Source: Pseudomonadales bacterium (GTDB taxonomy: Bacteria > Pseudomonadota > Gammaproteobacteria > Pseudomonadales > Pseudohongiellaceae). From it: DNA of 38,977 nt. The position numbers and the translations under genes are program-made. The DNA lies in contig JAJEGU010000056.1 of assembly GCA_022819645.1 (NCBI GenBank), positions 1-38,977 on the forward strand. The letters are read 5' to 3'. Position 1 is the stretch's first letter; each line of letters begins with the position of its first letter. The notes under the pieces were generated by a model, which was not told the DNA's origin, did not search any database, and saw only the letters and a program-made list of their open reading frames with translations. Shown one piece after another: positions 7,507-30,206 of the stretch.

Positions 7507-7664
7507 TCAGCAATTCTCATTTTGGCGCTCCAGCCTTCATGTCATTCTGCGCGAAGCGAAGCGCAGTCGCAGAATCTCTTGCAGCGGCCACATAATGATA
7601 TCCCGCGACTGCGCGCAGGATGACCAATTGTGAGCGCGCCCATTGCCATAATGAGAATTGCTGA
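7507..7664. mobile_element. MITE-like element with 20-base terminal inverted repeats
   Basis: The ends 7507-7526 and 7645-7664 are inverted copies with one mismatch (TCAGCAATTCTCATT at the left, its complement at the right). Inside them a copy of the GTCATTCTGCGCG repeat (7541-7576) faces a second, degenerate copy (about 7603-7623), so the whole 158 bases form one long imperfect palindrome. It carries no open reading frame of note. I see no convincing target-site duplication. It fills most of the 238-base gap between the DUF4153 gene and the leucine-rich-repeat protease gene. Confidence 0.6.
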
Positions 7665-7737
7665 CTTCGATTACACGGAAGTGACTTTCCGCCCTTCTTG
7701 CTGGCAATATGGCCAAAAATTCCAGGATGGACCCACA

Positions 7738-10700: not shown

Positions 10701-12192
10701 TTCCTTCAATCAATTGCGGGGAACCGTGGATTGGGCTTTCCGCGAACGCATTGCCGAAGGCAACCTGCTGCTGGAAACCGAGGGCAATCGGATCACTGGC
10801 CTCGCCGCGCCGCCGGAAAGGGAGCCAGCGCCGGCGGAGCCACCGGAAAGCCCGGTCAATGCCTCCCATCATTCGATTGCCTGGTATCAGGGGCCACTGC
10901 TCATGGAGTGGGACTGGCAAGGAGAGCGAGTCGAGCATCAAACGCCGATTCTCGGTCGCTGGGCGCTGCTGGCGGTGCGGGTGAACCACGCCACGGAACA
11001 GCCGCCGGAGGTCATCACCCGCGTGCTGGACGCGGAAGACAAGATACTCGTGGAAAGCCTCGCCGAGGCCGCGCCACCGACAACCAAAGCAATCGAACCC
11101 GGTCAATTCCGCTCAGAGTTTCTCTTTTACCTGCCCGGGCGGATGTATCAATCCGGCAACCAGATCGTGCATGTGATCGACCCGGAAAATGCTCTCAATG
11201 AATCGGATGAAAGCGATAACATCGCCGAGCCGATTGTTCTCCATGGCGAACAACCGCCAAGGTTCCGCGCGGTTTTCATCCCCCTGCTCATGCCGGATGA
11301 AAAGCAATGGCACAAGGACTTCGACCCCAATGCGCTGCTGGCGGGCACCCTGGCTTTCCTGCCGATCGCCGATGATTTCGAGGCGCGATTCGGGCCGACC
11401 CTGGAATTTGACGCCCACGAAATCGACGACCCATTGATTGACGTATTCGAGTTGTGGAATGCCGAAGCCGAGCCCGATGAGTTCTATCACGGCATCGTCA
11501 ACCACGAAACCGGCGGTGTCGCGGTGCTGGGAAGCCAGGTGGCGGTGAGCGAACTTTCCATCCACCGCGTCATCCCCCATGAATTCGGCCACAACCTGAC
11601 TCTCGAACACACTCCCGGCTGCCACGCCGAAGGAGTGGACGAGGACTACCCCTATCCCGACGGCAAACTCGGTCCGGACCCGGCCTGGGAACACAACTGG
11701 CGGCTGTTCGCCTCCGGCGATGACGAGGCCTACACCGACCTCATGTCCTACTGCACCGAATTGAAGCTGATTTCCGACTACAACTACCGCCGCGCCGCGG
11801 AGTACTGGCTCGCCTTCGGCATACAGACGAACACCAGCCCGGTCACCTCGGGACCAGCCCCGCAAAGCCTCGCCGCCGCCAGAACCGGGAACGAAGGCAG
11901 CATCGCCCTCTCCGGCCGCATCAGCGCCGGCGGCGCCTGGAGTCTGACCCAGGTCAGTCAATCCACTCGCCAGCCACGCCCGCCGGCCGATAATGGCGAA
12001 TACACGCTGCTCCTCTTCGACGCCGCCGGCGTGCAAGTTCACGCCGAACCACTGGCCCTCCTGCCGCTAAGCCACGGCGAGGGAAGCTTCTGGGCCGCGA
12101 GAATCCCGATACCCCTGCGAGAACCGGAAGAAATCGTGATTCTGGATGCCCAGGGCAACGAAATGCTGCGGCGAACCCTGCCCGAGATGTGA
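7738..12192 (+). CDS. Secreted leucine-rich-repeat zinc metalloprotease
   Basis: A 1484-residue exported multidomain protein. Residues 1-20 are a signal peptide. Residues about 30-480 contain two tandem copies of a module of about 230 residues (FPLIMDGDGFRSRL and LPLIVDGSGFRSRL). Residues 490-665 hold two putative Ig domains (LPFDPVTRRLSGTPTEAGEY; LTFDIPTRQLSGAPERTGVY). Residues about 765-1000 hold about ten plant-type leucine-rich repeats of 24 residues (LxxLxLxxNxLSGxIPxxLG). A CARDB-like domain follows. The protease domain has HEFGHNLTLEH (H1281, E1282, H1285, H1291), the HExxHxxxxxH zinc site of metzincins, and a likely Met-turn in TDLMSYC. Substrate is unknown; a role in adhesion or in degrading extracellular protein is inference. 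The ATG at 7738 starts the signal peptide. Confidence 0.85.
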   Translation: MKIIAVAAIAALLSLPGLAQSPDRSAGRQHVFPLIMDGDGFRSRLILNNAAASANQCALVLQGGQDQGELLDTSRLQANDALKADGANATISLPAGGAGVTLATTGESGFAFGYALLDCERNVIARLLLTLDDAANPGSPLALAASGGAPGGSDFIFPLQRQSADFALVFANPGASAANCSHFFDEQADTGAGGENLTVPPGSTVFEFPVAAEQFPDSSVILASCDSDVAAIGIPFEGQVFSAVLPFSPDADNSESSNPVLPLIVDGSGFRSRLLLANPTGAATSCALTLRGQGLDESRFELPDGVTPTSAGLLMNLESGGELQWLTSKGEGSLVLGHASIDCEQPVLASNTLSLELGGILAGMATIPGSQKASAFQVPVIPESGRLALATSNDSSSDVSCGLELTDYGGANFGLAAFQVEPASTTVQFLDELFLLPENFPGGEATVSCDQPVEAVALPLSGAAFAALSPAILAAETLTPEPGLIFNPADFPLISIFRLDETITPLQLPEPLNGEPPFSYTLEPPIPGLPFDPVTRRLSGTPTEAGEYLLQYQARDASGKSGLYPVFILVRGPDSEPGFADDSALPDQNYTLGREIETLQFPEATGGNPPLVYFLSPEVPGLTFDIPTRQLSGAPERTGVYPISYNVTDADFDMDSLEFTITVTAPESARTPLEADRCADGDFVENPSENSGLVADCQALVSFANALIETGLIMEDNVLNQWGGKGQVQVESWSGVGTSEARVSSLELPFSSLKGDLPAAPGELEALTRLDLRGNELSGGIPPEIGNLSRLETLDLSANRLSGSVPAELAKLENLRNLSLAINKLSGPIPPGLGALGKLESLSLMENELSGTIPAELGQLANLRELNLAANQFAGSIPSSLGQLGKLTTLQLFANELTGAIPPELGQLENLEKLVLGFNELSGAIPAELAMLRKLRQLILSMNRLSGPIPPDLGELSALVMLDLRFNALEGSIPVELAGLENLRDLYVSFNQLRGTVDWAFRERIAEGNLLLETEGNRITGLAAPPEREPAPAEPPESPVNASHHSIAWYQGPLLMEWDWQGERVEHQTPILGRWALLAVRVNHATEQPPEVITRVLDAEDKILVESLAEAAPPTTKAIEPGQFRSEFLFYLPGRMYQSGNQIVHVIDPENALNESDESDNIAEPIVLHGEQPPRFRAVFIPLLMPDEKQWHKDFDPNALLAGTLAFLPIADDFEARFGPTLEFDAHEIDDPLIDVFELWNAEAEPDEFYHGIVNHETGGVAVLGSQVAVSELSIHRVIPHEFGHNLTLEHTPGCHAEGVDEDYPYPDGKLGPDPAWEHNWRLFASGDDEAYTDLMSYCTELKLISDYNYRRAAEYWLAFGIQTNTSPVTSGPAPQSLAAARTGNEGSIALSGRISAGGAWSLTQVSQSTRQPRPPADNGEYTLLLFDAAGVQVHAEPLALLPLSHGEGSFWAARIPIPLREPEEIVILDAQGNEMLRRTLPEM

Positions 12193-14041: not shown

Positions 14042-14139
14042 CCTCCAATTGACGCATGACAATTACTGAGAAAGCGGTATGGTGAGGCCATGATAGTATC
14101 TCGACAAATTTGGATTCCCGGAAGCTGTCGTCAAAAATC

Positions 14140-16023
14140 ATGCTGAAAAAGACAAATACAAAAACACCTTCGTCTGAAACTGAATCGTCCGATGTCTCTA
14201 CCGGAATCTCGGACCCTGAATTGTCCGAAGACAGGCTCGTGCAGAAAAAGAATCCCCTGCTGCGGGCGCTGGATTTGCTTTCGGCGGACCAGTTCGGACA
14301 AGTCGTCGAAGACGTTCTGAAGGCCCCGCGCGCGGGAGACTCGAAAAGTGCGCGGCAGAGCCTCAACGCCGCCATAGACGCCTGCGAATACATTGAAATC
14401 AAGGGAGTTCGCCCGGGAAAAGTCAGCAAGGCGAGCCCCGCGCAACTGAAGCTTCCCATAGTCGAGGAATGTGGCCGTTACGAAAACGTTCGATTGCTGG
14501 GGGCCCTGCTCCGCGTTTGGCGGGCGAGCAAGGCGCGGTTGCGGGAGAAGGTCCAGGATTATCTCAATGAAGCGGGAGTCGCCGCAGTACCGGTGTCTTT
14601 CAAGGAAGGTCAGTATCACGGTCTTTGGCGGCCCGAAGACTGGGAACGGCACATGGCGTCGCTGCTCGAATCCGACGAAGAATCCGGCGAAACGGACAAC
14701 TCCGGTTTGGCGGCCGCGGAAACCCGCTTGATGCTGAGCCTGGTGTCGGGCGCGTCTCCTGCCCGGCCGGAAGAGTTGTCGGCGGGGAAGTTCGACGACC
14801 CGGTGCTGGCGGGTTTTCTGGTCCGACTCTGGACCTTCAGCCCACAAGATCCCATCTGGGGTGAGATGGACAGTTTCATCGAGGAACTTGGGGAACTTAA
14901 CGACACGAAGGGACGCGAGATGATCGAGGCCCGGATTACGACCGGCAAGCAACGGCTGGAAGAACTCGATAACTGCCACAAGGAATCGCTTGCCTATCTC
15001 GAATGCGATCTTGGCCGGATCCGGTCCGCGATCAACGAAAACGCGGAATTGATGTTGTGCACCGGTGACGACTATTGCACTGACCTGATTGAGTCGCTGA
15101 GCGAGTACGAGTCGGTTCGGCGCCGGGGTGACACGAAGAGCGAGGAGAGCGCGAGGGCCGTCAAGCGCGCCCCACTCGAAGATGAAATCGTCAATCTGGT
15201 GAAGCAATGGGAGCGCGAAATCGGCAACCGGAAATCGAAACTGCGGGAGGAAGACTCCACCGCCGATGAATCGCCCACCACGGAAGAATTGCCGATAGAG
15301 GAGGATATTCTTGCGCTGCGCAATCGGCTGCAAGCCGAGACCTTGAAGCGTAAGGAATTCCAATCCAGAATCGAAACGCAGTCCGCCGACCTGCGCAAGC
15401 TGCGGCAGTTCTTTCGCAACGCCGAATCGAGAAGCAGGCGATTGTCAGAAGAAAATCTGGAACTCCGGGAGTGTTTGGAAGAGGCAACGGAAACCGAAAC
15501 GCAGAATTCAGCCGCAGCGGTGGGAAAAGACGGGGGCGACTATCTCGTCACGTATCCCCCACGGCTGATAAAGGACGTCAAAGATGCCGTGAGCCAGGCG
15601 GAGCGTACGTTCGAAGACAAGCTTGTCGTTGACACGAACGCCGAATCACAACTGAACAGCGCTTTTGAGAAACCGGATGAAGTTTTCAAGGCGCTCGCTT
15701 GGCTTGCGACGGATTTACGGGTCGCCAAACTCAATCCCGATGTCGGCGTCAACTTGAACGAGGCGCTTGATAAAAGTCTGAAGAAAGCGGTGAGGCCAAA
15801 CTGGTTTTACACGCCCCGTCAATCGCCCACCGCCACCGGAAAGTATCCCGATTCGTACACTACTTCGCATCAAGGGAAAAAGTACGACCTGCACGAGCAC
15901 ATCGGCCGGGGGAAGAGCCACAGCGCCAAAGGCAATATCCGCATCGCTTTCGCCTGGGATGAAAAGAAGGGAAAGTTGATCGTCGGCTACATCGGCCGCC
16001 ATCAGCCGACAGGCCGCTCCTGA
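14140..16023 (+). CDS. Unrecognised coiled-coil protein
   Basis: I do not recognise this 627-residue soluble protein. It has no signal peptide or membrane segment. The N-terminal 35 residues are Ser/Thr/Glu-rich and probably disordered. Residues about 35-250 are mostly helical. Residues about 370-470 are rich in Glu, Arg and Leu and look like a coiled coil (ALRNRLQAETLKRKEFQSR and following). The last 50 residues form a separate small domain with GNIRIAFAWDEKKGKLIVGY followed by IGRH. That ending resembles the C-terminus of the protein at 20063-21040 (GQYRVHFGW...VVYIG). The ATG at 14140 was preferred to a TTG at 14110; neither has a good ribosome site. The gene stands alone and converges with the next gene, 21 bases away. 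Confidence 0.7.
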   Translation: MLKKTNTKTPSSETESSDVSTGISDPELSEDRLVQKKNPLLRALDLLSADQFGQVVEDVLKAPRAGDSKSARQSLNAAIDACEYIEIKGVRPGKVSKASPAQLKLPIVEECGRYENVRLLGALLRVWRASKARLREKVQDYLNEAGVAAVPVSFKEGQYHGLWRPEDWERHMASLLESDEESGETDNSGLAAAETRLMLSLVSGASPARPEELSAGKFDDPVLAGFLVRLWTFSPQDPIWGEMDSFIEELGELNDTKGREMIEARITTGKQRLEELDNCHKESLAYLECDLGRIRSAINENAELMLCTGDDYCTDLIESLSEYESVRRRGDTKSEESARAVKRAPLEDEIVNLVKQWEREIGNRKSKLREEDSTADESPTTEELPIEEDILALRNRLQAETLKRKEFQSRIETQSADLRKLRQFFRNAESRSRRLSEENLELRECLEEATETETQNSAAAVGKDGGDYLVTYPPRLIKDVKDAVSQAERTFEDKLVVDTNAESQLNSAFEKPDEVFKALAWLATDLRVAKLNPDVGVNLNEALDKSLKKAVRPNWFYTPRQSPTATGKYPDSYTTSHQGKKYDLHEHIGRGKSHSAKGNIRIAFAWDEKKGKLIVGYIGRHQPTGRS

Positions 16024-18655: not shown

Positions 18656-19069
18656 TCAGGCAGTGGTTGAAAACAGCAGGGATACGTCCGTCAGCGACGA
18701 CATCTTCCGGTCCAGGGTAAGCACTTCCAGGCCCGCCGTCCCGTAATCCAGGGCGATCAGGCGGTCGAATAATCCCGGCCCGCCGGTAACGGCGAGTGCA
18801 TCCAGCACCGGCTTGCCGTGCAACGGCGCCACGAGGCCACTTTGCAGCACCTGGGAAAGGGCGGCCCTGGCCTCCTTCTTGCCAACCCCGTAATGGTGTC
18901 GCACGGCGACATAGGCTTCTCCGATAACTTGATTCGAGGCCAGAATTTCTGTTTCCCCGGACTCGATCAGGCTTCGCAGCTCGGCCACACAGCGCTGGAA
19001 CTCTTTTTCCGGTTCCGCAACGAGCAACCGAACCAGAATCGACGTGTCAATCCCGCAGCGTCGACGCAC
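18656..19069 (-). CDS. PIN-domain toxin (VapC-like ribonuclease)
   Basis: A 137-residue PIN-domain protein. The acidic metal-binding residues of the family are in place: D8 in GIDTSILVRLL, E51 in QVIGEAYVAV, D102 in GLFDRLIAL and D120 in LTLDRKM. VapC toxins cut tRNA or rRNA; the target here is unknown. The start is a GTG at 19069, which makes a 23-base overlap with the upstream antitoxin gene, typical of coupled toxin-antitoxin pairs. The pair lies directly beside the left edge of the defence island and may belong to it. Confidence 0.8.
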   Translation of the reverse strand: MRRRCGIDTSILVRLLVAEPEKEFQRCVAELRSLIESGETEILASNQVIGEAYVAVRHHYGVGKKEARAALSQVLQSGLVAPLHGKPVLDALAVTGGPGLFDRLIALDYGTAGLEVLTLDRKMSSLTDVSLLFSTTA

Positions 19070-19289
19070 CGGCCCGCTCCCTGACCCGCTCCAGGTCGAA
19101 CGTGCCCCGGCCCCGTTTCAGCTTGTCGCGCAGCCCCCCGAGCATCGATTCGTCCACCCGCACAGGCCGCAACACATAGCCGTCGCTCCCTTCCCGCAGT
19201 TCCAGCCGATCTCCCGGACCAACGCCCAGCGCATCCAGCACCCGGGCCGGAAACGTCACCTGTCTTTTTGCTGTTATCTTCACTTGCAT
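19047..19289 (-). CDS. AbrB-type antitoxin (VapB-like)
   Basis: An 80-residue SpoVT/AbrB-domain DNA-binding protein. The swapped-hairpin domain is visible in residues 1-45: VKITAKRQVTFPARVLDALG and GDRLELRE. The C-terminal part, rich in Arg and Glu, should wrap the toxin. It has a strong Shine-Dalgarno sequence (AAGGAG, six bases before the ATG at 19289) and an inverted repeat over that site that could be its own operator. It precedes and overlaps the PIN toxin gene. Confidence 0.82.
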   Translation of the reverse strand: MQVKITAKRQVTFPARVLDALGVGPGDRLELREGSDGYVLRPVRVDESMLGGLRDKLKRGRGTFDLERVRERAGASTLRD

Positions 19290-19297
19290 CAGTATCT

Positions 19298-19323
19298 CCT
19301 TACTATAAAGAAAAAAAGTAAGG
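19298..19323 (-). promoter_or_regulatory. Possible operator of the toxin-antitoxin operon
   Basis: CCTTACT (19298-19304) and AGTAAGG (19317-19323) form an inverted repeat with a 12-base AT-rich spacer. The arm nearest the gene overlaps the AAGGAG ribosome site of the antitoxin. A self-regulating VapB-like antitoxin would be expected to bind such a site; binding is inference. Confidence 0.45.
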
Positions 19324-19380
19324 CAACGTCGGAAAGCATACGCCCACTCTCACTTGAAGTCCAGCACTGTTTAGCCTCCT

Positions 19381-19408
19381 GGGAGCCTGCGCCGTAACGG
19401 CACTTCCG
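19381..19408 (+). repeat. CCTGCG hairpin repeat at the edge of a gene fragment
   Basis: GGAGCCTGCGCCG, then a segment like the second hairpin of the 98-base unit (CGGCACTTCC). It lies at the point where the gene fragment at 19399-19620 begins, so it may mark the breakpoint. Confidence 0.5.
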
Positions 19409-19620
19409 AGGAGTTGCTGTCGGTGCCGAACTACCAGTTCAACTGGCAGATGCGCCACCATCTGGAGCGCAAGTTCGTGCCGGCCGGCACCGAGATCGTC
19501 GCGGTCGGCGCCTTCGACAATTCAACCCAGAACGCGTTCAATCCGGACCCGAGCCAGGAAATCGACTGGGGCCCGCAAAGCTGGGACGAAATGTTCATCG
19601 GCTACAATCTGCTGGCAGCA
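19399..19620 (+). pseudogene. C-terminal fragment of a redoxin/copper-monooxygenase-like protein
   Basis: The frame GTSEELLSVPNYQFNWQ, then PAGTEIVAVGAFDNSTQNAF, then NPDPSQEIDWGPQSWDEM looks like the C-terminal part of the secreted copper type II monooxygenase/redoxin-associated proteins found in environmental bacteria, where DNS-x-NP-x-NPDP and WG-x-QxWDEM are conserved. Only about 70 residues remain; there is no start codon with a ribosome site and no upstream part. Past about 19620 the frame continues to 19806 but the sequence no longer resembles the family. I take it as the remains of a chromosomal gene cut by insertion or deletion at the island edge. The family assignment is from memory of the motif. 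Confidence 0.55.
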
Positions 19621-19674
19621 TGTGGAAGACGCAACGGAATAGAACCCGCAACGACCGGTTTCAACCTTCAACAT

Positions 19675-19713
19675 CGCGGGCGGCTGATCATTCAGCTGCC
19701 CGCGTTTCGTTTC
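19675..19713. terminator. Strong hairpin, probable intrinsic terminator
   Basis: CGCGGGCGGCTGA (19675-19687) pairs with TCAGCTGCCCGCG (19692-19704) in a 13-base stem with one G-T pair and a TCAT loop, followed on the plus strand by TTTCGTTT. It could end transcription leaving the fragmented gene upstream. Beyond it, 19714-20062 holds only short unsupported frames. Confidence 0.5.
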
Positions 19714-20062
19714 CCCTTCCACTTAATGACTTCGGAGCCACAATTCCCGCCGCGCTGGCCATCGACGAATTTCAGTGCGACGTTCGGTATCGTCCGGCAT
19801 CCGTAGTTGACCCTTGGTCGGCACCAGCGTCGATTGGACTCGCCGACGTAACCAGTTCTCCTTTTTCGCCGCAAAGGTGAGGTCTGTAGTAGTCGATGTG
19901 AGGACAGGGTCTAGGAGGCCATCATGGAGAAACACCTACATTTGGTCCAACCGATTGTGTTTTTCTGCTATGGAACGCGAGCTAGCCTATTCGTGCTCCC
20001 AATCTGAGGGACAAACTATGCCAAATCACCCTTAGTCGATCAGTAATGTCGATCTGCACATA
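19714..20062. other. Intergenic stretch with no recognised gene
   Basis: This stretch is the transition from high-GC to low-GC sequence. It contains a minus-strand frame (about 19723-19935) that is arginine-rich in its second half and has no family I know; another short minus-strand frame ends inside the terminator hairpin. They may be the remains of a gene, but nothing supports a functional product. No direct repeat or tRNA end that could be an attachment site was seen. Confidence 0.4.
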
Positions 20063-21040
20063 TCATCTTTTAGTTATTTTTGGGCCAATGTAGACCACAG
20101 GTAAACCGTCAGCGGGTTTCGACTTCGGCCAGCCAAAATGAACCCGGTATTGACCGCTTGCCCTGGTCTTTCCATGCCACGGGAAGAGCCGTCGATCACC
20201 ATTCACAGGGCAGCGAAACGTGAGATCAGACTTGAAAGCTATCTTCTCTGAATCTGTCGAATCGGAAAAGAGGGCTGTTTTCCCTTCAAGAAAAGTTTTT
20301 CGGAGTACTTCACCACAGGAACTCAATGCTCCAGTCTCGGCGTCCATTTCCTCGCTAAGTCGATTGAGAATATCAAGTAATCTGATGATTTGTTTACACA
20401 ATGCCAATGAGAATGGCGATTTTAAGATTGGGTCGAAGGCGTCGATGGAAAACATGAGATTAGCGAAGCGATGAACTGCATGATCGCGTAGTTCTCGCCA
20501 AGTGCACAAGCTAGTCGAGTTATCCAAGTACTGTCTCAGTGGCGGGTCATCCCGATGATTAAGAAGTTCACACTTGTCTATCACTTCGTCGTCGTCGCGA
20601 ATCCCTGCTTGAACGGGGGTATAAGTGAAGTCGGAAGGACTCGCACTCAGAAGCGCTGCACCTTCTTGATCAAGTACCCGACGGGCGCACTCGGCTAGTG
20701 CCGAGTCTGTAGCCAAGAGTTCCTCGCTCTCATGAATTGTGAAGTACCAGTCATCTGCATCGTGCTCGCGATTCGTATCCCAGTAAGGCCCCTGTTTATC
20801 GAGCCAAGTCATTATAAGGCGACGAATATCGGCCTGGGGGTATTGGATCACGACTTCTCGCAAGGTCATGTTGGCGAGTACCTTGCGATCCCCGAGAAGT
20901 ACGCGAGAGCAAAAGCACTGCGCGGCGTATTCTTGGCATACTGAGCGCAAAGTCCAGAGGCGCTGAATGGCAGCGACAACATCGTCATGAGAGTTGAATT
21001 GGCCGTGAAACGAATAGTCATTGACGTATAGAGATGCCAT
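20063..21040 (-). CDS. Unrecognised third protein of the DUF262-ATPase cassette
   Basis: A 325-residue soluble protein I do not recognise. There is no signal peptide or membrane helix. The first 250 residues look mostly helical. The last 50 residues form a compact segment, GQYRVHFGW...LPVVYIGPK, with a G-x-x-R-[VI]-x-F-x-W...Y-I-G pattern also seen at the end of the protein at 14140-16023; a faint likeness to RelE-type toxin strands is only a guess. The ATG at 21040 was chosen: it overlaps the ATPase stop as TAATG and has GGAAG five bases upstream; an ATG four codons earlier has no ribosome site. It is last in the six-gene series 29089 to 20063. It could be the effector or a target sensor of the trio; this is inference. 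Confidence 0.75.
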   Translation of the reverse strand: MASLYVNDYSFHGQFNSHDDVVAAIQRLWTLRSVCQEYAAQCFCSRVLLGDRKVLANMTLREVVIQYPQADIRRLIMTWLDKQGPYWDTNREHDADDWYFTIHESEELLATDSALAECARRVLDQEGAALLSASPSDFTYTPVQAGIRDDDEVIDKCELLNHRDDPPLRQYLDNSTSLCTWRELRDHAVHRFANLMFSIDAFDPILKSPFSLALCKQIIRLLDILNRLSEEMDAETGALSSCGEVLRKTFLEGKTALFSDSTDSEKIAFKSDLTFRCPVNGDRRLFPWHGKTRASGQYRVHFGWPKSKPADGLPVVYIGPKITKR

Positions 21041-22191
21041 TACTGCTTCCATTTGGTCAAGTTTGCCAGATCTGCTTCATACTGATCGCAAAACCCTTCG
21101 GGCCAGTGGTCCAGAACGCCTTCGCGATCAATTGAAATTGTGCTGTGTTGGTGCATATCTCCATCTTCGGTAAATTCACCGAAGTAATGAAGGATGACAT
21201 TCGAGGCAGGTATCTCCCCATCGCGAACGGCAATGCGAGCCCCATTGATGAAATGGTCATTATGCGTTTCAACAAGAACCTGAACACCTGAAGCGGCAAC
21301 TTTGGCCAAGAACTTCGCAACCTCATTTTGACATGACGGATGTAAGTGAGCTTCTGGACTATCGAGCATCAGAAGCTGCCCTGGAGTTCTGCTTAGCGCG
21401 GCTGTGACTATGGGCAAAGCGTAGTATGGGCCGTAACCGACATTAGGCGGTTGGTGAAACTCCCCCGAGAGTTCAGTACGAATCCGCAGAGTCATAATTT
21501 CCATTGCACTATCTACAGGTTGGATCTCCATGGCAAAGCCAGGGAAGAAATGCCTCATCCATGCTTCGACCTGTCGAGGTAGCGTCGGTGGTACGTCAGC
21601 GATACGAAGAGATTCTGAGATATGTGCCTGATCGTTGAGATACAGCAACGGTACAGCTCCTTCGCCTAAAGTGCCAATACGGTGTTCAGAATCGCTGTCG
21701 ATTGTTGCAATAACCTCTGCGGGATCAGACCGGAGAGTCGTCAGAAACTCAAGATCCCGCAAGAGAACCGCGATCGGCTCTTCTACACCCTCACCAAGTG
21801 ACACGTTTTGGAAGTCAATCTTTCGACTGCCGTCGAATGCTCGAATTTCACCATTATGTAACACCGCCTTTGGGTTTCGTCGCTCCCCGGTGAATCGCCA
21901 AGTAACCTCCGCTGTTTCATTTCGTAGTGTGATCTCAAAAACTTGTTGGTCTGTCGATTGATTCTGGACGTCACCTACGTTTCCCAGTCGAACGAGGTCT
22001 CCATTTAGAAGCAGTTCGTCGCGAGAACGGTGCCCTCCTTCCCTAATGCTTTGACCTAGAACGGCCAGGGCGTGACACACTGTTGATTTTCCTGCGGAAT
22101 TCAATCCCGTCAGAATTGTGAACGGTGCCAAAGGTAAATCCAAAGCGACATGACATTTGAAATCTCGAAGGGATAAGAAGCTAATGCTCAT
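21040..22191 (-). CDS. AAA family ATPase with DUF3696-type C-terminus
   Basis: A 383-residue SMC/RecF-like ATPase. Walker A is GLNSAGKST (residues 29-37). The combined Walker B and D-loop is LLMLDSPEAHLHP (about residue 272 on), and the switch histidine lies in VETHNDHF. The C-terminus DREGVLDHWPEGFCDQYEADL matches the short DUF3696 ending (WPEGFFDQ-like). Proteins of this kind are frequent in anti-phage loci, where ATP binding controls a partner nuclease. No TOPRIM or nuclease motif is present in this chain, so the effector must be a partner. The ATG at 22191 overlaps the DUF262 gene stop (ATGA). GC is low, about 45%. Confidence 0.85.
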   Translation of the reverse strand: MSISFLSLRDFKCHVALDLPLAPFTILTGLNSAGKSTVCHALAVLGQSIREGGHRSRDELLLNGDLVRLGNVGDVQNQSTDQQVFEITLRNETAEVTWRFTGERRNPKAVLHNGEIRAFDGSRKIDFQNVSLGEGVEEPIAVLLRDLEFLTTLRSDPAEVIATIDSDSEHRIGTLGEGAVPLLYLNDQAHISESLRIADVPPTLPRQVEAWMRHFFPGFAMEIQPVDSAMEIMTLRIRTELSGEFHQPPNVGYGPYYALPIVTAALSRTPGQLLMLDSPEAHLHPSCQNEVAKFLAKVAASGVQVLVETHNDHFINGARIAVRDGEIPASNVILHYFGEFTEDGDMHQHSTISIDREGVLDHWPEGFCDQYEADLANLTKWKQ

Positions 22192-23306
22192 TGAAGCACC
22201 TCCTTTATCATCATCTCTGTACGCTTGAATCGAAGCGCAACCTTCTTGACATCATTTGTGGCGTAGGAAATGGCATCAAAGTAGTCATTCTCTCTCACGA
22301 GTGTTGCTAGACTCTGTCGAATAGCATCATCGTACTGTGGCTTAATACGGTCACCATATTTTGCAAACAATACTGAGAAGACATCAAAAAGAGCCACATT
22401 AATGACACTCCGTCTTTCGTGGTTTCCTCGAGGCTTTCGGAAAGCATCCCGTTCAAAGACACGTTTACTGATCTCCATACTAAGCATAAATTTTGAAGTA
22501 ATTTCTTTCCAGTAGTTGTCGCCCACTTCCTTCTTATCTTCAAGCACATCTCGGAGAAAGTTGTCCATATTCCCTGTGTATTCATTGAAGCCACGATCAT
22601 AGAATGCAAGAAAACGGTTTATGCATTCTCTATCGCGCATAGTCTTCCAGTTCAATCCATTATCTGTTGCTAACCGGAATTTTTCTGACTCCGCCATACT
22701 TGAAAGCCATCTAGTTGCTTCCCCAAGATAAAGGCAATTCCTCATCTGCTGCTTTGTCAATAGTTGACCACTATTAACACGCTCAAATATATCCAGCTTG
22801 GCTTGCTCCGGAACTTGGTTATCTATAAGATAAAGCGTTAGACTTGTATCCTCAATACGGTTCCGCAGTTTAGGGCTTAAGTCTACAAAGCGCTTTCCGT
22901 TAAGGGTATTCGCGTATTCCAGTCCTTTGAGGCGCAATTCATTTTTTAGAAACCGATGAAAGGTAGAAAGGCGCTGTAGGCCATCCACAATCACTATCTT
23001 TCCATCAGCTGTCTCTGCTAGATAAAAGACTGGCAAGGGGATACGCATGATCGCAGATTCTATAAGTTTGCATTGCTTGCCTTCGTCCCAAATGAATTTA
23101 CGCTGAAAATCTGGATTAAGAATATAAATGTCATTGTCTATTCGACGGCACACTTCAAATGTTGAGCGTTTGTCAGTTCTGATCATCAGACTGTCTAACG
23201 GATAATCACCCAATTCAATTGGTTCACTTTCGTCGAGACCTTCTGGCTCCGGCGGCTCGTCTATCGATAGCGACGACTTCAACCTATTGTCTTCTTCATT
23301 AGTCAT
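22188..23306 (-). CDS. DUF262 domain protein
   Basis: A 372-residue protein with an N-terminal DUF262 (ParB/Srx-like fold) domain. Visible motifs: ILNPDFQRKFIWDEGKQ (residues 62-78) and IVDGLQRLSTFHRFL (106-120). The usual DGQQR core appears here as DGLQR. FERVNSGQLLTKQQ is the third conserved block. DUF262 domains occur in GmrSD and BrxU enzymes, where they hydrolyse nucleotides and control an HNH nuclease domain; this protein has no DUF1524/HNH domain, so it is not a complete GmrSD. It has a strong ribosome site (AGAGGAG) before ATG 23306 and lies 29 bases after the Mod stop. Lines in the gene are about 43-45% GC, the lowest in the window. Confidence 0.85.
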   Translation of the reverse strand: MTNEEDNRLKSSLSIDEPPEPEGLDESEPIELGDYPLDSLMIRTDKRSTFEVCRRIDNDIYILNPDFQRKFIWDEGKQCKLIESAIMRIPLPVFYLAETADGKIVIVDGLQRLSTFHRFLKNELRLKGLEYANTLNGKRFVDLSPKLRNRIEDTSLTLYLIDNQVPEQAKLDIFERVNSGQLLTKQQMRNCLYLGEATRWLSSMAESEKFRLATDNGLNWKTMRDRECINRFLAFYDRGFNEYTGNMDNFLRDVLEDKKEVGDNYWKEITSKFMLSMEISKRVFERDAFRKPRGNHERRSVINVALFDVFSVLFAKYGDRIKPQYDDAIRQSLATLVRENDYFDAISYATNDVKKVALRFKRTEMMIKEVLQ

Positions 23307-23335
23307 CGGTTTCTCCTCTTTTGCTCACAGCACCA

Positions 23336-25246
23336 TTAGAATGCCACTAGCCTCTCTCCGAATTCAGTGCGGAGATTCCACTTCTTTGTCGTGTTGAGCG
23401 CTTGCTCAAGACAGATGAAAATGCCTTCCATGCCTTTGAGTTTGGCGATAGTATGCTCCTTCAGGTCTTGGTCAAGGCAAACTGTTGCCTCTTTCCGTGA
23501 ATCCTGCGCTCGGAAGACCATGTTATCGGTGAAGCCAGTAAGTTGCTCCGTCTGAACGTCAAGCATAAATCCGTTTTTAAGGAGGACTTCTTGTAAAATA
23601 TCTTCTCTCGAGAAAGTCATCAGGAACGCTGCTTCTTTCTCTCGGATGTAAGCGTCAAGCGCTTCAAGGTTTTCCTCTTCCGTCTTATCAGGATTTGGTT
23701 CAAAATCTGTACGAGGAAAGCGAGACTTGGCAAGACGAAAGACCTTGAAGCCGGACGTCCAAATCGATGGTGAGACCCCATCGTCACCAAGCAAGTCATT
23801 CCGAGTTTTGGTTTTGGCAGTCATTGCAGCCTCGTCGAAACGATAAGCTACTTTCTTGTTTCGGTCGATGGTGATATCCGAAATTTTGCGGTAGCCCGCA
23901 TTGTACGCCTCAGTCTGCACAGATATAGGTTCAGGAAGCTGCACGAGTATGAACTTTCGATTGCCTCCATCACTGGCATTGAGTTCCCAAACGCCCTGAC
24001 CTGTCGAGCCAGATCCGGCGAAAAAGTCCAATACTATGTCCTCCCCAGATGATGCTTGCTCACATAAAGCGCGGATTAGCTGAGACGGTTTGGCGAAATC
24101 GAATATTTGTGCACCAAAAAGATCGCGAATCTCTGCTGTTCCGTGTGACGTGTAGACTTCCTCGATTATTGTAGGGAATGACGTGAAGGAATCCCCCAGG
24201 TCGGAACGAAATTTCTTCTCTCTCGGACGTCCTTCGGTATTGTCCGGAAAGAGAATTGCATGACTATCAATCAACTTCTGCATTCTCGCCTTGGAGTATC
24301 GCCAGCCAGTGGCTTCTGGAGGATGAAAGATGTTTCCATTGCTTGGGTCTATGATGGGATAGTGGAGATTTGGCCTCTGATCGCGGGTTGCAAGCCCAAG
24401 GATACTTCTGCTCATCCAAGGTCCGCGGGCATCATCATCCGGGTTTAAGAACTTAGACTCATCCCGTGGTGTTCCCCGAAATGCGAAGTCCGCGCTTCTG
24501 GCATAACAAACAACGTACTCATGATCGGTTGAAAGATGCCGTAGAGAACGAGCATCGGTGAACTGCCGACAATGCCAGGTGAACTGAGCCACAAAATACT
24601 CTGGCCCGAAGACCTCGTCACAGAGCTTGCGCAGATGGTGCAACTCGTTGTCATCGATAGAGATGAAGATCACCCCGTCATCTCTAAGAAGTTGACGAGC
24701 AAGCAGAAGACGAGGATACATCATGTTCAGCCAATTCGAATGGAATCGTCCGTCTACCTTTGTGTTTGTATCAACCTTGATGCCATTTTCGGTAATACCG
24801 ACATGTTCCCAATAGGTTCTCCTTTCCTGGTCCCAAGTATCGGAATAAACGAAATCATTTCCCGTGTTGTACGGCGGATCAATATAGATGCACTTTATCC
24901 GATTGCGGTAAGCGGCGAGCAGACACTTCATGACTTCGAGATTCTCTCCCTCAATGATCGCGTTCCCTTCGGCAAGCTCTGGATTCACAGAGCGCGCGGG
25001 ATCGTACTCCAAAGTTGCGAGAGTCGGTGTGAATGCGTTGCGTTTGGCATCGGCCTTGCCGAACCAACGGAATTCGAAGCGTTCGGTTTCCGGCGTCGAA
25101 GAGGGGTCGATGAGGCGTTTCAGCTCGTCGGGGTTGAGAGCCCCGTCATTGGTAAACAGATCCGGCATGAGTTCGCGGAGTTGCTCCAGACGTTCCTGGT
25201 TTAGATCAGGCGTGGCTGGCATTCGGTCCATAATTGCCTTGTTCAT
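23336..25246 (-). CDS. Type III restriction-modification DNA methyltransferase (Mod)
   Basis: A 636-residue N6-adenine DNA methyltransferase. The catalytic motif is IYIDPPYNTGND (DPPY at 123-126) and the S-adenosylmethionine motif is VLDFFAGSGSTGQG (409-413). This order, DPPY before FxGxG, is the beta class to which type III Mod subunits belong. The part between residues 200 and 390 should hold the target-recognition domain, which sets the recognition site; the site cannot be predicted. Mod methylates alone and guides Res to DNA. The frame is open 95 codons further upstream, but ATG 25246 overlaps the DUF1016 gene stop (ATGA) and follows GGAGGCAAGTC, a good ribosome site. Confidence 0.92.
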   Translation of the reverse strand: MNKAIMDRMPATPDLNQERLEQLRELMPDLFTNDGALNPDELKRLIDPSSTPETERFEFRWFGKADAKRNAFTPTLATLEYDPARSVNPELAEGNAIIEGENLEVMKCLLAAYRNRIKCIYIDPPYNTGNDFVYSDTWDQERRTYWEHVGITENGIKVDTNTKVDGRFHSNWLNMMYPRLLLARQLLRDDGVIFISIDDNELHHLRKLCDEVFGPEYFVAQFTWHCRQFTDARSLRHLSTDHEYVVCYARSADFAFRGTPRDESKFLNPDDDARGPWMSRSILGLATRDQRPNLHYPIIDPSNGNIFHPPEATGWRYSKARMQKLIDSHAILFPDNTEGRPREKKFRSDLGDSFTSFPTIIEEVYTSHGTAEIRDLFGAQIFDFAKPSQLIRALCEQASSGEDIVLDFFAGSGSTGQGVWELNASDGGNRKFILVQLPEPISVQTEAYNAGYRKISDITIDRNKKVAYRFDEAAMTAKTKTRNDLLGDDGVSPSIWTSGFKVFRLAKSRFPRTDFEPNPDKTEEENLEALDAYIREKEAAFLMTFSREDILQEVLLKNGFMLDVQTEQLTGFTDNMVFRAQDSRKEATVCLDQDLKEHTIAKLKGMEGIFICLEQALNTTKKWNLRTEFGERLVAF

Positions 25247-26397
25247 GACTTGCCTCCTTCGTTCTCGGAGCGCCATTCGAGAAGCAGTCTGCGCAGTTCC
25301 TCCTTGGGTGGAAGTTCCAGCTTGTAGCGGCTGGCGAAAATGCGTTCGTTGCCCTTGTCGAGCACGTATTCGACGACAGCATCGTTCTTGTCGGTACAGA
25401 GGATCAGGCCAATCGTCGGGTTGTCTTCCCGGGCGCGTATTTCGCGATCGAAATAGTGAACGTACATCTGCATCTGGCCAATATCGCCATGAGTGAGCTT
25501 TTCTGTTTTCAAATCGATGATCACATAACACTTCAGGCGCACATGATAAAAGACCAGGTCCGCGTAGAAATGGTCTCCATTCAGCGTGAGTCTTTTCTGA
25601 CGGGCTACGAAGGCGAATCCAGCCCCCAGTTCCAATAGAAACTCCTGCATGTGGCTAGTAAGGGCCGTTTCCAGTTCGCTTTCGACCAATCGATGCGACT
25701 CGGGAAGGCCGAGGAACTCCAAAGCATAGGGGTCTTTGATAATGTCGATGGGGTGTTGGGTCTCCTGTCCTTTGCTAACGAGTTGGAGCACACCGTCCTT
25801 GTCTCGGCTCTTGAGCAGGCGTTCAAAAAGCAGGGTGTTGATCTGTCGCTCAAGCTGCCGCTTGCTCCAGCGGTTACTGGCGGCTTCCTGTTCATAGAAT
25901 TGCCGCGCTTCATCGTTTTCAACGCGCATCAGGGTGCGGTAGTGTGACCAGCTTAGGTCGGGATGGAAGCCTGTGACGAATTCAGTACCCACTGGGTACT
26001 GTTTTTGTTTAAGTTCTCCCCCAGCGGGATAACCAATTGCAGCCATAGCAAATTTAGTACCCATTGGGTACTGAATTGCCAGTCGGTGTTCATAGATCAG
26101 ATAGAACTTCCTGCAATTTTGGAGGGTTGGCACGGAATATCCAGCGCCGTACTGCTCATTGAGCCGTTGGGAAAGGTCCAGTAGTAATGCCTTGCCGTAT
26201 TCGGCCCGTTTCTGCCCCTTCTGCTCTTCCTCAACGATTTCGCGTCCGATCAGCCAATATGCGGCCACCATTGCGCTATTGACCGTTCGGGCGACACGAC
26301 TGCGGGCTTCTTCGAGAATATCCACAATCCGACCGAACAACGCGGCATTGTCCGAGGCCGGCGTATCCGGGACTTGCGTTTGAATCTGTTCAGGCAT
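25243..26397 (-). CDS. DUF1016/YhcG-family PDDEXK nuclease
   Basis: A 384-residue protein with an N-terminal DUF1016 helical domain (about 20-180) and a C-terminal PDDEXK nuclease domain (about 215-360). The nuclease motif is HFYADLVFYH (D280) followed by YVIIDLKTEKL (D295, K297), with a conserved Gln in HGDIGQMQMYV. Such proteins are often found inside restriction operons; their role is not settled. Residues 109-140 contain three related short peptides, QYPMGTKF, GYPAGGEL and QYPVGTEF, encoded by DNA with two near-identical palindromes. It overlaps Res by eight bases upstream and Mod by four bases downstream. Confidence 0.87.
   Translation of the reverse strand: MPEQIQTQVPDTPASDNAALFGRIVDILEEARSRVARTVNSAMVAAYWLIGREIVEEEQKGQKRAEYGKALLLDLSQRLNEQYGAGYSVPTLQNCRKFYLIYEHRLAIQYPMGTKFAMAAIGYPAGGELKQKQYPVGTEFVTGFHPDLSWSHYRTLMRVENDEARQFYEQEAASNRWSKRQLERQINTLLFERLLKSRDKDGVLQLVSKGQETQHPIDIIKDPYALEFLGLPESHRLVESELETALTSHMQEFLLELGAGFAFVARQKRLTLNGDHFYADLVFYHVRLKCYVIIDLKTEKLTHGDIGQMQMYVHYFDREIRAREDNPTIGLILCTDKNDAVVEYVLDKGNERIFASRYKLELPPKEELRRLLLEWRSENEGGKS
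25983..26073. repeat. Pair of 17-19-base palindromes inside a coding region
   Basis: AGTACCCACTGGGTACT (25984-26000) and AGTACCCATTGGGTACT (26056-26072) are perfect odd-length palindromes, except for the central base, and lie exactly 72 bases (24 codons) apart. Between them CCCAGCGGGA looks like a degenerate third copy. They keep the frame of the DUF1016 gene. Confidence 0.75.
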
Positions 26398-29089
26398 GCA
26401 TCACTCCCTTGGCGCGAGACTTGAAGACTGAGTATTCCTTGACGGGCGCGTCGTACTTGACATGCGCATCCACCCCCAGCGCGTCAAAGTGTTTCATGGC
26501 GCACTTGATCTTGTAGACCTCGCTCTCACGAAGCGCCTTCTTGTCGGCAAGCTCGTTCGTGCCCTTGGTTTCGACAACGAAGTAGAACTCGGATTCATTG
26601 CCATCCTTGAGGTGCCTCCGGCGAAGAACAACACCGAAATCCGGGTTGTATGCGCCAATGGGGGTTGGAATCTGATAAAAGGCCGGGAGCTTGAGAAAGC
26701 AAACGACTTCGTCGTCGTTGTCCGCGGACAAGGCGAAATTCCGCTCGAAATTGCTGTCTAACGCAACGCAGTCGTAGAGGCCTCGGTTCGGCGTTTCGAT
26801 GGTGTCCGTGAAAGTCACGGTACTCGGTTCAAGCCGCGAGATATCGAAGTCCTCGCCGTTGGGCGCATAAGTCAAACCGCGAAGCAATTCATCCAGTTCG
26901 ATTGCCCGGATTCGCGATGATGCTTCATGGATGAAGCGGACAGGGTTTGCGACGATGTCCTCACGGTTGGTTACGTTTCGCAGAATCTCGATTACCGTCG
27001 GATAGGCAAGTGACGTTCCTTCGCTGATTTCCTCGACGAGGTCTACTGCCCCGAAAGTGGCGCGCAGGCGTCGTCGTTCGCTGCCCATGTGCTGTGTCGT
27101 CACCCCTTCGGCTTCAAGCCGCTCAATGCGGTCGAGTGATACTTCGGCGATGTAGCGTTCAATTTTCAGGGCATTCAAGGCCTCGGTGGCTCGATTGATA
27201 ACGGCGTCTTCGTCTATCACTACCGTGTAATCGGTGCGCAGACTCAGGCGCCGCCAGAATTCACGGAAGGAATCGCTCTCATAGATCGCATCGTTCCTTT
27301 TCACGCGGCGCTTGCGCGGGTGCTTGCCCTTCTGTTTGTGCCTGGTCTTTGCGCCGGACGCAGAAGACCCGTAGATCTCCGTGATTTCGCTCTGGTACTG
27401 ACTCACGAACGTTTCGTAAGTCTCGTTCGGCACGATCGTCAGAAGATTGATTTCGTCTCCCTCGGGGCAGTCTTCGGCGTCGTAGACGCGCTGGCCGTCC
27501 TGGTTGACCGAGATGCGAAGCCCGCGGCCGATCTCTTGGCGTTTCTTGATTTCGCTGTAGCTCTGGTTAAGCGTCGCGATGTTGAACACGTTGGGGTTGT
27601 CCCATCCTACGCCCAGAGCGGAATGCGAGAAGATGAACTCAACCGGGTTCCCGAGACGCAGCAGTTCTTCTTTCTGTTTCAGGATGAGGTCGAAAAGCTC
27701 CTTGTTCGTGCGCATGGAATGCTTGTTGTCCGTGTATTCGCCCTTTCCCGTTTGTGCGAAATAATAGCCCTGCACGGCAGCAATTTCTTCCTCGGATGGA
27801 GAGCGGTTCAGTTTTTCCTGACAGACTCGTCGATACTTCTCAGCGAAGACGCGGCGTATGATGCCGTCCGGCCGAACGTAGTTGTCAACGCAATCAATGA
27901 AGATGAGGGACAAGCACTTGATTCCCTGCGGCGCAAGCCGTTCACGCTTTGTGAAATGACTGTCGATCAGCCAATAGAGCTGCTCCCCGAAGATGCCCTC
28001 CAGGTCTGCGGCTTTCTCTTTTTCAGTCACCATAGCGCCATTCTCGAATTCGCAACGGTAGTGGCGTTCTCGAAGCGGTTTCGAGATGCGGCGAATGACA
28101 TAGCCCCGATAGCCGACGTTGCGCGTCTTCTCTTCGAGGTTATCACCGACCTTGAGAAGCGGAGACTCGCGTGAGGTAAACGATCCGTCTTGCTTTGCGT
28201 ACCAGAGGCGCAGTTTCGCCCTCGGCGGTTTGCCGTCCTGATACGTTTTCACTTCGACAAGCTCGACGCGCGACATCGCTTCCTGGTGTCGCTCTGCAAC
28301 GGTCAGCACTTCGATCTTTTTCACAAGGCCCTGCTGATAGCTGTCAAACGGAGTCAGCCGGTAGATGAGATTTCGCATGACCTTGTGGGTCGCGGAGTAA
28401 CGAAGCCGGCATAGCGGACTCAGTGCGTCGATTCGTTTGACGGCGTTCTTGGTGTCCATGCCTTCCTGTGGCTCGTCCATGATGACAATCGGGCGCGTAC
28501 TCGCAATGGCGCGGATGAACGGCATATTGGAGAACAGGTCTTCCCGCTGGGCCTGATTGAGAATGCGATCCTCCGCATTGAATGACTGAAGCGTCATCAC
28601 CATGAGTTGGGGATGCTGCTCCTCGACGAAGGCCTTCACGCGACTCAAGCGCTTGCTGTCGTATTCGAAGCACGCGGGCGTGAAGCCGTATACGTCGGCC
28701 AGTTGTCGCTTGAACACGTCGAAAGTGGCGAGGACGCCCTCCTTGATAGCAACGGAGGGGACAAGGATGATGAACTTCGTGAAGGCGTATTGGCGGTAGA
28801 GTTCGTAGACAGTCTTGAGGTAGACGAGAGTCTTGCCGGTGCCAGTCTCCATCTCGATGCAGAAGTCCAGAGCTTCATCGAGGGAAGCAGAATCTTCGTC
28901 GATGCCGCTGCCTTTGAGGACTGCGAGGACGTTCTCGCTGATTTGCTTCGGGGGGATGGTAAGGGCGTTGCGTCTCACACCTTCGTGGCAAGCCGTATCG
29001 AACGTGTTGCGCGGTTGTCCCTCAAAGAGGCGCACGACGGCATCGATAGCGTCGCGCTGATAGGAAAGTTCCTCAAGTTTCAGTTCCAT
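26390..29089 (-). CDS. Type III restriction endonuclease subunit (Res)
   Basis: An 899-residue superfamily 2 helicase-nuclease. Walker A is METGTGKTLVY (GTGKT at 83-87), the helicase motif II is IVIMDEPQ (205-208), motif III is YSATH, and motif VI is QEIGRGLRI. The C-terminal PDDEXK nuclease is complete: YNPDFGVV (D817) and FVVETKGTNE (E840, K842). The length and the DEPQ variant fit type III Res, which cuts unmethylated DNA after ATP-driven communication between two sites, in complex with Mod. It is the first gene of a six-gene minus-strand series. GC on a line I counted is about 50%, lower than the chromosome. No clear promoter was found in the 139 bases upstream. Confidence 0.92.
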   Translation of the reverse strand: MELKLEELSYQRDAIDAVVRLFEGQPRNTFDTACHEGVRRNALTIPPKQISENVLAVLKGSGIDEDSASLDEALDFCIEMETGTGKTLVYLKTVYELYRQYAFTKFIILVPSVAIKEGVLATFDVFKRQLADVYGFTPACFEYDSKRLSRVKAFVEEQHPQLMVMTLQSFNAEDRILNQAQREDLFSNMPFIRAIASTRPIVIMDEPQEGMDTKNAVKRIDALSPLCRLRYSATHKVMRNLIYRLTPFDSYQQGLVKKIEVLTVAERHQEAMSRVELVEVKTYQDGKPPRAKLRLWYAKQDGSFTSRESPLLKVGDNLEEKTRNVGYRGYVIRRISKPLRERHYRCEFENGAMVTEKEKAADLEGIFGEQLYWLIDSHFTKRERLAPQGIKCLSLIFIDCVDNYVRPDGIIRRVFAEKYRRVCQEKLNRSPSEEEIAAVQGYYFAQTGKGEYTDNKHSMRTNKELFDLILKQKEELLRLGNPVEFIFSHSALGVGWDNPNVFNIATLNQSYSEIKKRQEIGRGLRISVNQDGQRVYDAEDCPEGDEINLLTIVPNETYETFVSQYQSEITEIYGSSASGAKTRHKQKGKHPRKRRVKRNDAIYESDSFREFWRRLSLRTDYTVVIDEDAVINRATEALNALKIERYIAEVSLDRIERLEAEGVTTQHMGSERRRLRATFGAVDLVEEISEGTSLAYPTVIEILRNVTNREDIVANPVRFIHEASSRIRAIELDELLRGLTYAPNGEDFDISRLEPSTVTFTDTIETPNRGLYDCVALDSNFERNFALSADNDDEVVCFLKLPAFYQIPTPIGAYNPDFGVVLRRRHLKDGNESEFYFVVETKGTNELADKKALRESEVYKIKCAMKHFDALGVDAHVKYDAPVKEYSVFKSRAKGVMHA

Positions 29090-29228
29090 AAGGGAATGTC
29101 ATGATTCAGGAAGCGACGGCATATCCAGATCAAGCAATCGGCAAGGCTTCAACGGCGAACCTAAGCCGACCCGCGCTCGATGTCCAGAAAATCCAGGAAA
29201 TTTACCTCCGCGCTCGGTCCTTGTCCGA

Positions 29229-30206
29229 TCAAGCCGCCAGGAAGCCTTCGAGGCGGCCGCGGATGATCTGATCGGCCTGGTTCATGATGCGGTCGATGAG
29301 TTCCTTGACCGTGGGGATGTCGTGGATGAGGCCGGCGACCATGCCGCAGGACCAGGCGCCGGCGTCCATTTCGCCTTCGAGCATGACGCGCGGATAAACG
29401 CCGACGACTTCTTCCATGATGTCCTCGAAGCTGATCTCCTGGCCAAGTTCCTTTTCCTTCTCCAGCAGTTTTTCCACCGCGGCATTGCTCAGCACGCGTT
29501 CGGTGTTGCGCAGGGGGCGCATGATCAGCCGGGTCTGCAACTCGTCGGCCTCGACCAGGGCCTGTTTGACGTTCTCGTGAATCGGCGCTTCCTGCGTGGC
29601 CATGAAGCGGGTGCCCATGTTCATGCCGTCGGCGCCCATGGCGAGGGAGGCGACAAGGGAGCGGCCGTCGGCCTGGCCGCCCGAGGAGACGAAGGGGATT
29701 TCCAGTTCGTCCGCGGCGCGCGGCAGCAGGATCATGTTGGGGATGTCGTCCTCGCCGGGGTGGCCGCCGCATTCGAAGCCGTCGATGCTGGCGGCGTCGC
29801 AGCCGATGCGCTGGGCCTTGAGCGCGTGCCGCACGGATGTGCATTTGTGGATCACCTTGACGCCGGCGTCTTTCAGGTACGGCAGCACCTGCTGGGGATT
29901 GTTGCCGGCCGTTTCGACGATTTTCACGCCGCTGTCGATGATGACCTTGACGATGGCCGGATAATCGACCGATCTGACGGTGGGCAGAAAGGTCAGATTG
30001 ACGCCGATGGGCTTGCCGGTCATGTCCTGGGCCTTGGCGATCTCGTTGGCGAGGTCGGCGGGCGTTTTCTGGGTCAGCGCGGTAATGATGCCGAGGCCGC
30101 CGGCCTCGGAAACGGCCGCCGCGAGTTCGGCGAAACCGACGTAATGCATGCCGCCCTGGATGATGGGATGCTCGATTCCGAGCATTTCGGTGATTCGTGT
30201 CTTCAT
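29229..30206 (-). CDS. Nitronate monooxygenase family FMN protein
   Basis: A 325-residue TIM-barrel flavoprotein of the nitronate monooxygenase/2-nitropropane dioxygenase family, related to FabK. Visible motifs: HPIIQGGMHYVG (13-24), GFECGGHPGE (143-152, with the conserved His), and the FMN-phosphate region SSGGQADGRSLVASLAMGAD then GMNMGTRFMAT. Family members oxidise nitronates or reduce enoyl thioesters; here the lack of a specific marker leaves both open. GAGAGGATC directly before ATG 30206 supports the start. It diverges from the acyl-CoA dehydrogenase gene (153 bases between), which may hint at a shared role in acyl-CoA metabolism. Confidence 0.87.
   Translation of the reverse strand: MKTRITEMLGIEHPIIQGGMHYVGFAELAAAVSEAGGLGIITALTQKTPADLANEIAKAQDMTGKPIGVNLTFLPTVRSVDYPAIVKVIIDSGVKIVETAGNNPQQVLPYLKDAGVKVIHKCTSVRHALKAQRIGCDAASIDGFECGGHPGEDDIPNMILLPRAADELEIPFVSSGGQADGRSLVASLAMGADGMNMGTRFMATQEAPIHENVKQALVEADELQTRLIMRPLRNTERVLSNAAVEKLLEKEKELGQEISFEDIMEEVVGVYPRVMLEGEMDAGAWSCGMVAGLIHDIPTVKELIDRIMNQADQIIRGRLEGFLAA

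Follow-up and report, generated by a model that had tools for sequence, protein, structure and literature searches.

A divergent Menshen operon (nsnABC) of a Pseudomonadales bacterium, located next to type III restriction genes

The founding paper of the Menshen anti-phage system is that of Millman et al. from 2022. In our study, comparison of sequences placed such an operon (nsnABC) at positions 20063–23306 of the contig JAJEGU010000056.1 of a Pseudomonadales bacterium (assembly GCA_022819645.1); the whole stretch of 38,977 nucleotides is called the window hereafter. In the accessible portion of PMC10952713, Menshen is described as a DUF262 protein with a predicted OLD nuclease/TOPRIM, and the mutation or deletion of its DUF262 gene abolished the resistance. 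The same portion ties the DUF262 domain to the binding or hydrolysis of nucleoside triphosphates (NTP) in GmrSD, BrxU, and SspE. In the accessible portions of PMC10121019 and PMC11680222, Menshen is merely listed among the systems found. Another system, ptuXYZ, is described from 17 operons in the accessible text of PMC11980606 (2025). It comprises a DUF262 protein without DUF1524, a PtuA-like ATPase, and a third protein, in which a PIN-like part devoid of catalytic residues is joined to a BECR (RelE/YoeB) part at the C-terminus.

The operon of the window was found to contain the following genes, each an uninterrupted open reading frame (ORF).

22188–23306, minus strand: nsnA, 372 amino acids
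21040–22191, minus strand: nsnB, 383 amino acids
20063–21040, minus strand: nsnC, 325 amino acids from the ATG at 21040; the ORF is open from 21052 (329 amino acids)

An earlier note, made from the letters of the sequence, had described three minus-strand genes with overlapping ends. This was borne out by the ATGA at 22191–22188 in the nsnA/nsnB junction and the TAATG at 21042–21038 in the nsnB/nsnC junction, and all the frames are intact. The ribosome sites ahead of nsnA and nsnB were judged good by eye. The start of nsnC is probably the ATG at 21040 rather than 21052, because it fits the starts of the homologues better; the residue numbers of NsnC given below are counted from 21052 (the 329-residue version).

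Eight proteins of the window were scanned with the PADLOC models, and 25 of 122 families were listed. NsnA matched the NsnA model with 383.4 bits (residues 29–371), NsnB matched the NsnB model with 299 bits (residues 3–380), and NsnC matched the NsnC model PDLC03896 with 278.7 bits (residues 7–329). The phage record PQ189377.1 was found to contain genes annotated as Menshen__NsnA, Menshen__NsnB, and Menshen__NsnC, in the gene order of the window. Its proteins matched the same NsnA and NsnB models as those of the window, but its NsnC matched PDLC03915 instead of PDLC03896. That Nsn stands for Menshen is evident from the annotation of this record. The NsnA of the window and that of the phage were 31% identical across 71% of the query. 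Judged by sequence, the three genes of the window belong to Menshen, as a divergent member of an anti-phage system that already has a name. The earlier note had taken the trio for a possible new defence cassette, a reading to be given up if a named system should match it exactly. The three Nsn profiles, the annotated phage record, and the matching description of ptuXYZ in the accessible text provide such a match; therefore the claim of novelty fails, and the candidate new system is closed as Menshen.

The trio shares the architecture described for ptuXYZ in the accessible text, including the two-domain third protein with a RelE/YoeB-like C-terminus. However, a PIN-like N-terminus could not be firmly recovered for the NsnC of the window, and the likeness is drawn from the ptuXYZ description. 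The word 'Menshen' is absent from the accessible text of PMC11980606; therefore the two names, given separately, probably cover one system. No publication equating ptuXYZ with Menshen was found in our literature search, the reach of which excluded the two main Menshen papers. The probable identity provides a concrete effector hypothesis for Menshen, namely a RelE-type toxin at the NsnC end.

The genome contigs of 84,980 species were scanned for NsnC using a two-row alignment and two peptide patterns from the N-terminal part. The scan yielded 22 loci, and NsnA and NsnB were found ahead of NsnC in the same order in all 22 (tblastn); in one of them (L020), nsnB was matched at its end only. Window-type NsnC was present in 3 of the 369 genomes of the window's class, its own included. 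In a set of 19 genomes, NsnC was found only in the window's own (0/18 of the relatives searched). The NsnB model matched 22 places in the 369 class genomes, of which eight (in six genomes) scored at least 298 bits and the other 14 ranged from 111 to 214 bits; the cut was set after the gap between 298 and 214 bits was visible. All the eight high-scoring places contained NsnA before NsnB and a gene matching an NsnC model, or an NsnC-like gene, after it. Of 16 plasmid records that encode a protein like NsnA, three were inspected, and each showed DUF262, DUF3696, and a hypothetical protein matching NsnC; in the first of these, the annotated third gene lacked the start of the model and was placed after a gap. 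This co-occurrence confirms the view of the earlier note that the trio is one functional unit.

Some operons were irregular. A transposase-like ORF (IS256-like by eye) interrupts nsnB at 3916–5139 of L013, one of the 22 NsnC loci, in a genome bin named Pseudohongiella. Two of the eight high-scoring NsnB places were also irregular. The nsnC of L064 (7038–8005) lies in two overlapping frames, owing to either a break or a sequencing error. L066 (6614–9046) contains a Menshen operon with an NsnC of 249 amino acids, which matched NsnC weakly (41.6 bits) and was devoid of the RelE-like ending by eye; a gene for an MvaI/BcnI restriction enzyme comes next. An exchange of the effector is possible in this operon.

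NsnA was found to contain the Pfam family GmrSD_N/DUF262 (E 7e-21; ParB/Srx-like NTPase) and a VDGLQR motif, the DGLQR of which was conserved in 26/26 NsnA rows. NsnB contained AAA_15, AAA_21, and DUF3696 (1.3e-9), as an OLD-type ABC ATPase with a DUF3696 tail, and the Walker A (P-loop), Walker B, and ETHxDH segments were present, the last as ETHNDH in the window. When compared with solved structures by sequence, NsnB had one match at E≤1e-4 (6p74, OLD family, 1.6e-6) and NsnA had no match at E≤1. The DUF1524, HNH, and TOPRIM families were not listed for any of the three proteins (Pfam, E≤0.1), in agreement with the earlier note, which had seen no nuclease domain in the DUF262 or the ATPase protein.

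A reading of NsnB as a divergent or impaired ATPase was tried and rejected. It came from a tyrosine at the signature glutamine 257 and a 'DS' in place of the Walker B 'EN', relative to 22 rows that comprised a second copy of the operon on contig 62 and 21 loci. In a wider set of 33 rows, which adds L035, L036, and eight operons including the Menshen-annotated phage, Y257 was present in 11/33 rows and S278 in 7/33 rows. The reading was dropped because the search patterns had confined the first loci to a narrow clade.

NsnC matched no Pfam family above its cut-off, and its comparison with solved structures by sequence gave one weak match (E 0.39). The predicted model contained two domains, an alpha/beta domain (PIN- or Rossmann-like) at residues ~1–195 followed by a RelE/YoeB (BECR) fold at residues ~196–329. 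The structure prediction asked for in the earlier note gave a RelE/YoeB-type toxin fold for the C-terminal domain, and the N-terminal part was not placed in any fold family by the comparison. With Foldseek alone, the match of the C-terminal domain to this fold was not significant. The invariant polar residues of NsnC are concentrated towards the end of its RelE-like domain. The earlier note had called the third protein effector or sensor, and the role of likely effector fits; a RelE-type fold is no proof of RNase action, because ParE has the same fold.

An ORF of 637 amino acids with a lower guanine-cytosine (GC) content (0.57) was found on the plus strand of the window at 14110–16023. Its residues 389–635 matched PADLOC HEC-07 (E 3.8e-13), its residues 607–635 weakly matched the C-terminus of NsnC (E 0.0015), and its ending, IRIAF...GYIGRH, is RelE-like by eye. 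It was matched in 4/369 class genomes including its own, and in the other three only across the C-terminal part. It is possibly a stand-alone toxin-fold defence protein. The comparison of NsnC with this ORF and with the third genes of L063 and L066 gave hhalign probabilities of ≤7%, with no confident match; the likeness of their ends is drawn from PADLOC and from reading.

The earlier note had placed the trio directly behind a type III restriction operon. The position was correct, with mod 29 bp upstream of nsnA, and a DUF1016 gene between res and mod had gone unmentioned.

23336–25246, minus strand: mod, type III DNA methyltransferase (Pfam N6_N4_Mtase, E 6e-29; PADLOC MTase_III, 503.7 bits); the ORF is listed to 25531, and the ATG at 25246 is the presumed start
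25243–26397, minus strand: DUF1016/YhcG PD-(D/E)XK nuclease gene (Pfam YhcG_C, E 1.9e-59; PADLOC PDC-S02, 472.4 bits)
26390–29089, minus strand: res, type III restriction enzyme (Pfam ResIII and RE_endonuc; PADLOC REase_III, 614.5 bits)

The trio had a GC content of 0.470, whereas 470 overlapping trio-length segments outside 20063–29089 had a mean of 0.625 (standard deviation 0.018, lowest 0.577). The lower GC content claimed earlier was therefore present, but it was not a property of the trio alone; the low-GC stretch is the entire six-gene minus-strand run of 20063–29089 (0.508), in the order res, DUF1016/YhcG gene, mod, and nsnABC, in which the genes overlap or lie 29 bp apart. No tRNA was found in the window. 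Three direct-repeat families in 19200–29400 were all internal to the low-GC run, and none was present at its ends as a mobile-element border. The promoter and terminator scans gave fewer sites than in shuffled sequences.

The DUF1016 gene contained two near-identical 19-bp palindromes (25983–26001 and 26055–26073), which encode QYPMGTKF and QYPVGTEF, respectively. None was expected by shuffling, and the genome contained no copies beyond these two. Over the matched part, the DUF1016 protein exceeded the best PDC-S02 profile by ~33 residues.

A second complete nsnABC was found in the same genome on contig 62 (L003, 7448–10797), and its A, B, and C proteins were 49, 39, and 37% identical to those of the window, respectively. 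The two copies were placed apart in the trees, and therefore the second operon is no recent duplicate; the long branches leave the exact position unsure. The window copy had a long end branch in all three trees.

We give a probability of about 0.6 to the reading in which NsnA and NsnB of this Menshen operon hold NsnC silent and a phage signal frees it as an RNase effector with a RelE fold. The analysis shows the three family identities, the gene order, the co-occurrence, and, in a predicted model, the fold of the C-terminus of NsnC; the mechanism is inferred. NsnA, with its ParB/Srx-like NTP pocket, and NsnB, the OLD-type ABC ATPase, would keep NsnC silent. A phage-made signal (the candidates are modified DNA, DNA ends, or an NTP change) would shift NsnA and NsnB into another NTP state, which would free or arm the RelE-fold domain. 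This domain would cut RNA, and phage production, probably together with host translation, would stop (abortive infection). A wider proposal is tentative: Menshen may be an NTP-gated RelE-fold system, with NsnA/NsnB as a phage-responsive antitoxin complex and a toxin end of NsnC that can be swapped from operon to operon, and this module may be common to ptuXYZ and perhaps to HEC-07-like proteins (the ORF at 14110–16023). Within Menshen, it is rather unlikely that the RelE-like fold of NsnC is inactive, with NsnC serving as the subunit for sensing or recognition and the cleavage due to an OLD-type activity of NsnB or to NsnA. Such an arrangement would agree with the OLD nuclease/TOPRIM prediction in the accessible portion of PMC10952713 and with the term putative nuclease for the DUF262 protein in that of PMC11980606; NsnC is also the most variable part, with many NsnC models against one NsnA and one NsnB model among the matches, as in a sensor. 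However, the nuclease families named above were not listed for NsnA or NsnB (Pfam, E≤0.1), and the invariant polar residues of NsnC are grouped near the end of its RelE-like domain.

The other explanations are far less probable than these. The six genes of 20063–29089 may form one layered unit, with Menshen as a second line of defence that is triggered once the type III enzyme has been blocked. The single strand, the single low-GC run, and the close spacing are in line with this, but mod, the DUF1016 gene, and res of the window gave only three short weak matches (49–65 bits; L018, L025, and L036) among 29 Menshen loci (tblastn, E≤1e-5; the search did not extend to other, unrelated restriction genes next to those operons), and we consider the layered unit improbable. 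It is still more improbable that the trio is a new system having only the DUF262 and ATPase parts in common with Menshen. NsnC without a Pfam family and the low identity of the phage NsnA would suit such a system, but all three proteins matched the Nsn models with 279–383 bits over nearly the full length and the order is that of the annotated phage record, so that it is refuted unless the Nsn models lump separate systems. An inert remnant, which the long end branches might suggest, is equally hard to credit against the three intact frames, the ribosome sites, and the retained key motifs.

Among the neighboring genes, a PIN-domain gene (18656–19069, minus strand; Pfam 23.1 bits, just below the cut-off of 23.6) and a MazE-type antitoxin gene (19047–19289, minus strand; 36.1 bits) were present next to the defence run. 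Between this pair and nsnC, a plus-strand ORF of 130 amino acids (19414–19806) had no Pfam match (E≤1e-4) and looks like the end part of some larger protein; it is perhaps a gene cut by the insertion of the low-GC run. The plus strand at 7630–12192 encodes a protein of 1520 amino acids, which contained leucine-rich repeats and a putative Ig domain.

The earlier note had set the trio apart from plain GmrSD, Gabija, and Septu systems, and the comparison with known systems agrees. NsnA shares the DUF262 domain and its DGxQR motif with GmrSD, BrxU, and SspE, as DGLQR against the DGQQR of GmrS and SspE in the accessible portion of PMC10952713, but the DUF1524 (HNH) nuclease domain that goes with DUF262 in those systems was not listed for the trio (Pfam, E≤0.1). 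The DUF262 protein model of PD-T4-2 matched NsnA with 123.1 bits, far below the 383.4 bits of the NsnA model. Septu, Gabija, and PARIS contain ATPase relatives of NsnB of the OLD/PtuA type, and the best listed models of PtuA, GajA, and AriA scored 43.1, 42.8, and 65.4 bits, respectively, against 299 bits for the NsnB model. The HNH partner PtuB of Septu, the helicase GajB of Gabija, and AriB were not among the PADLOC matches listed for the eight proteins, and the neighbors of nsnB were NsnA and NsnC. No TOPRIM was listed for the NsnB of the window (Pfam, E≤0.1), in contrast to the ATPase-TOPRIM arrangement of GajA. Of the OLD nuclease/TOPRIM predicted for Menshen in the accessible portion of PMC10952713, the OLD-type ATPase is present in NsnB. 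With Menshen, the locus shares the same three-gene order, in which each gene matched its Nsn profile.
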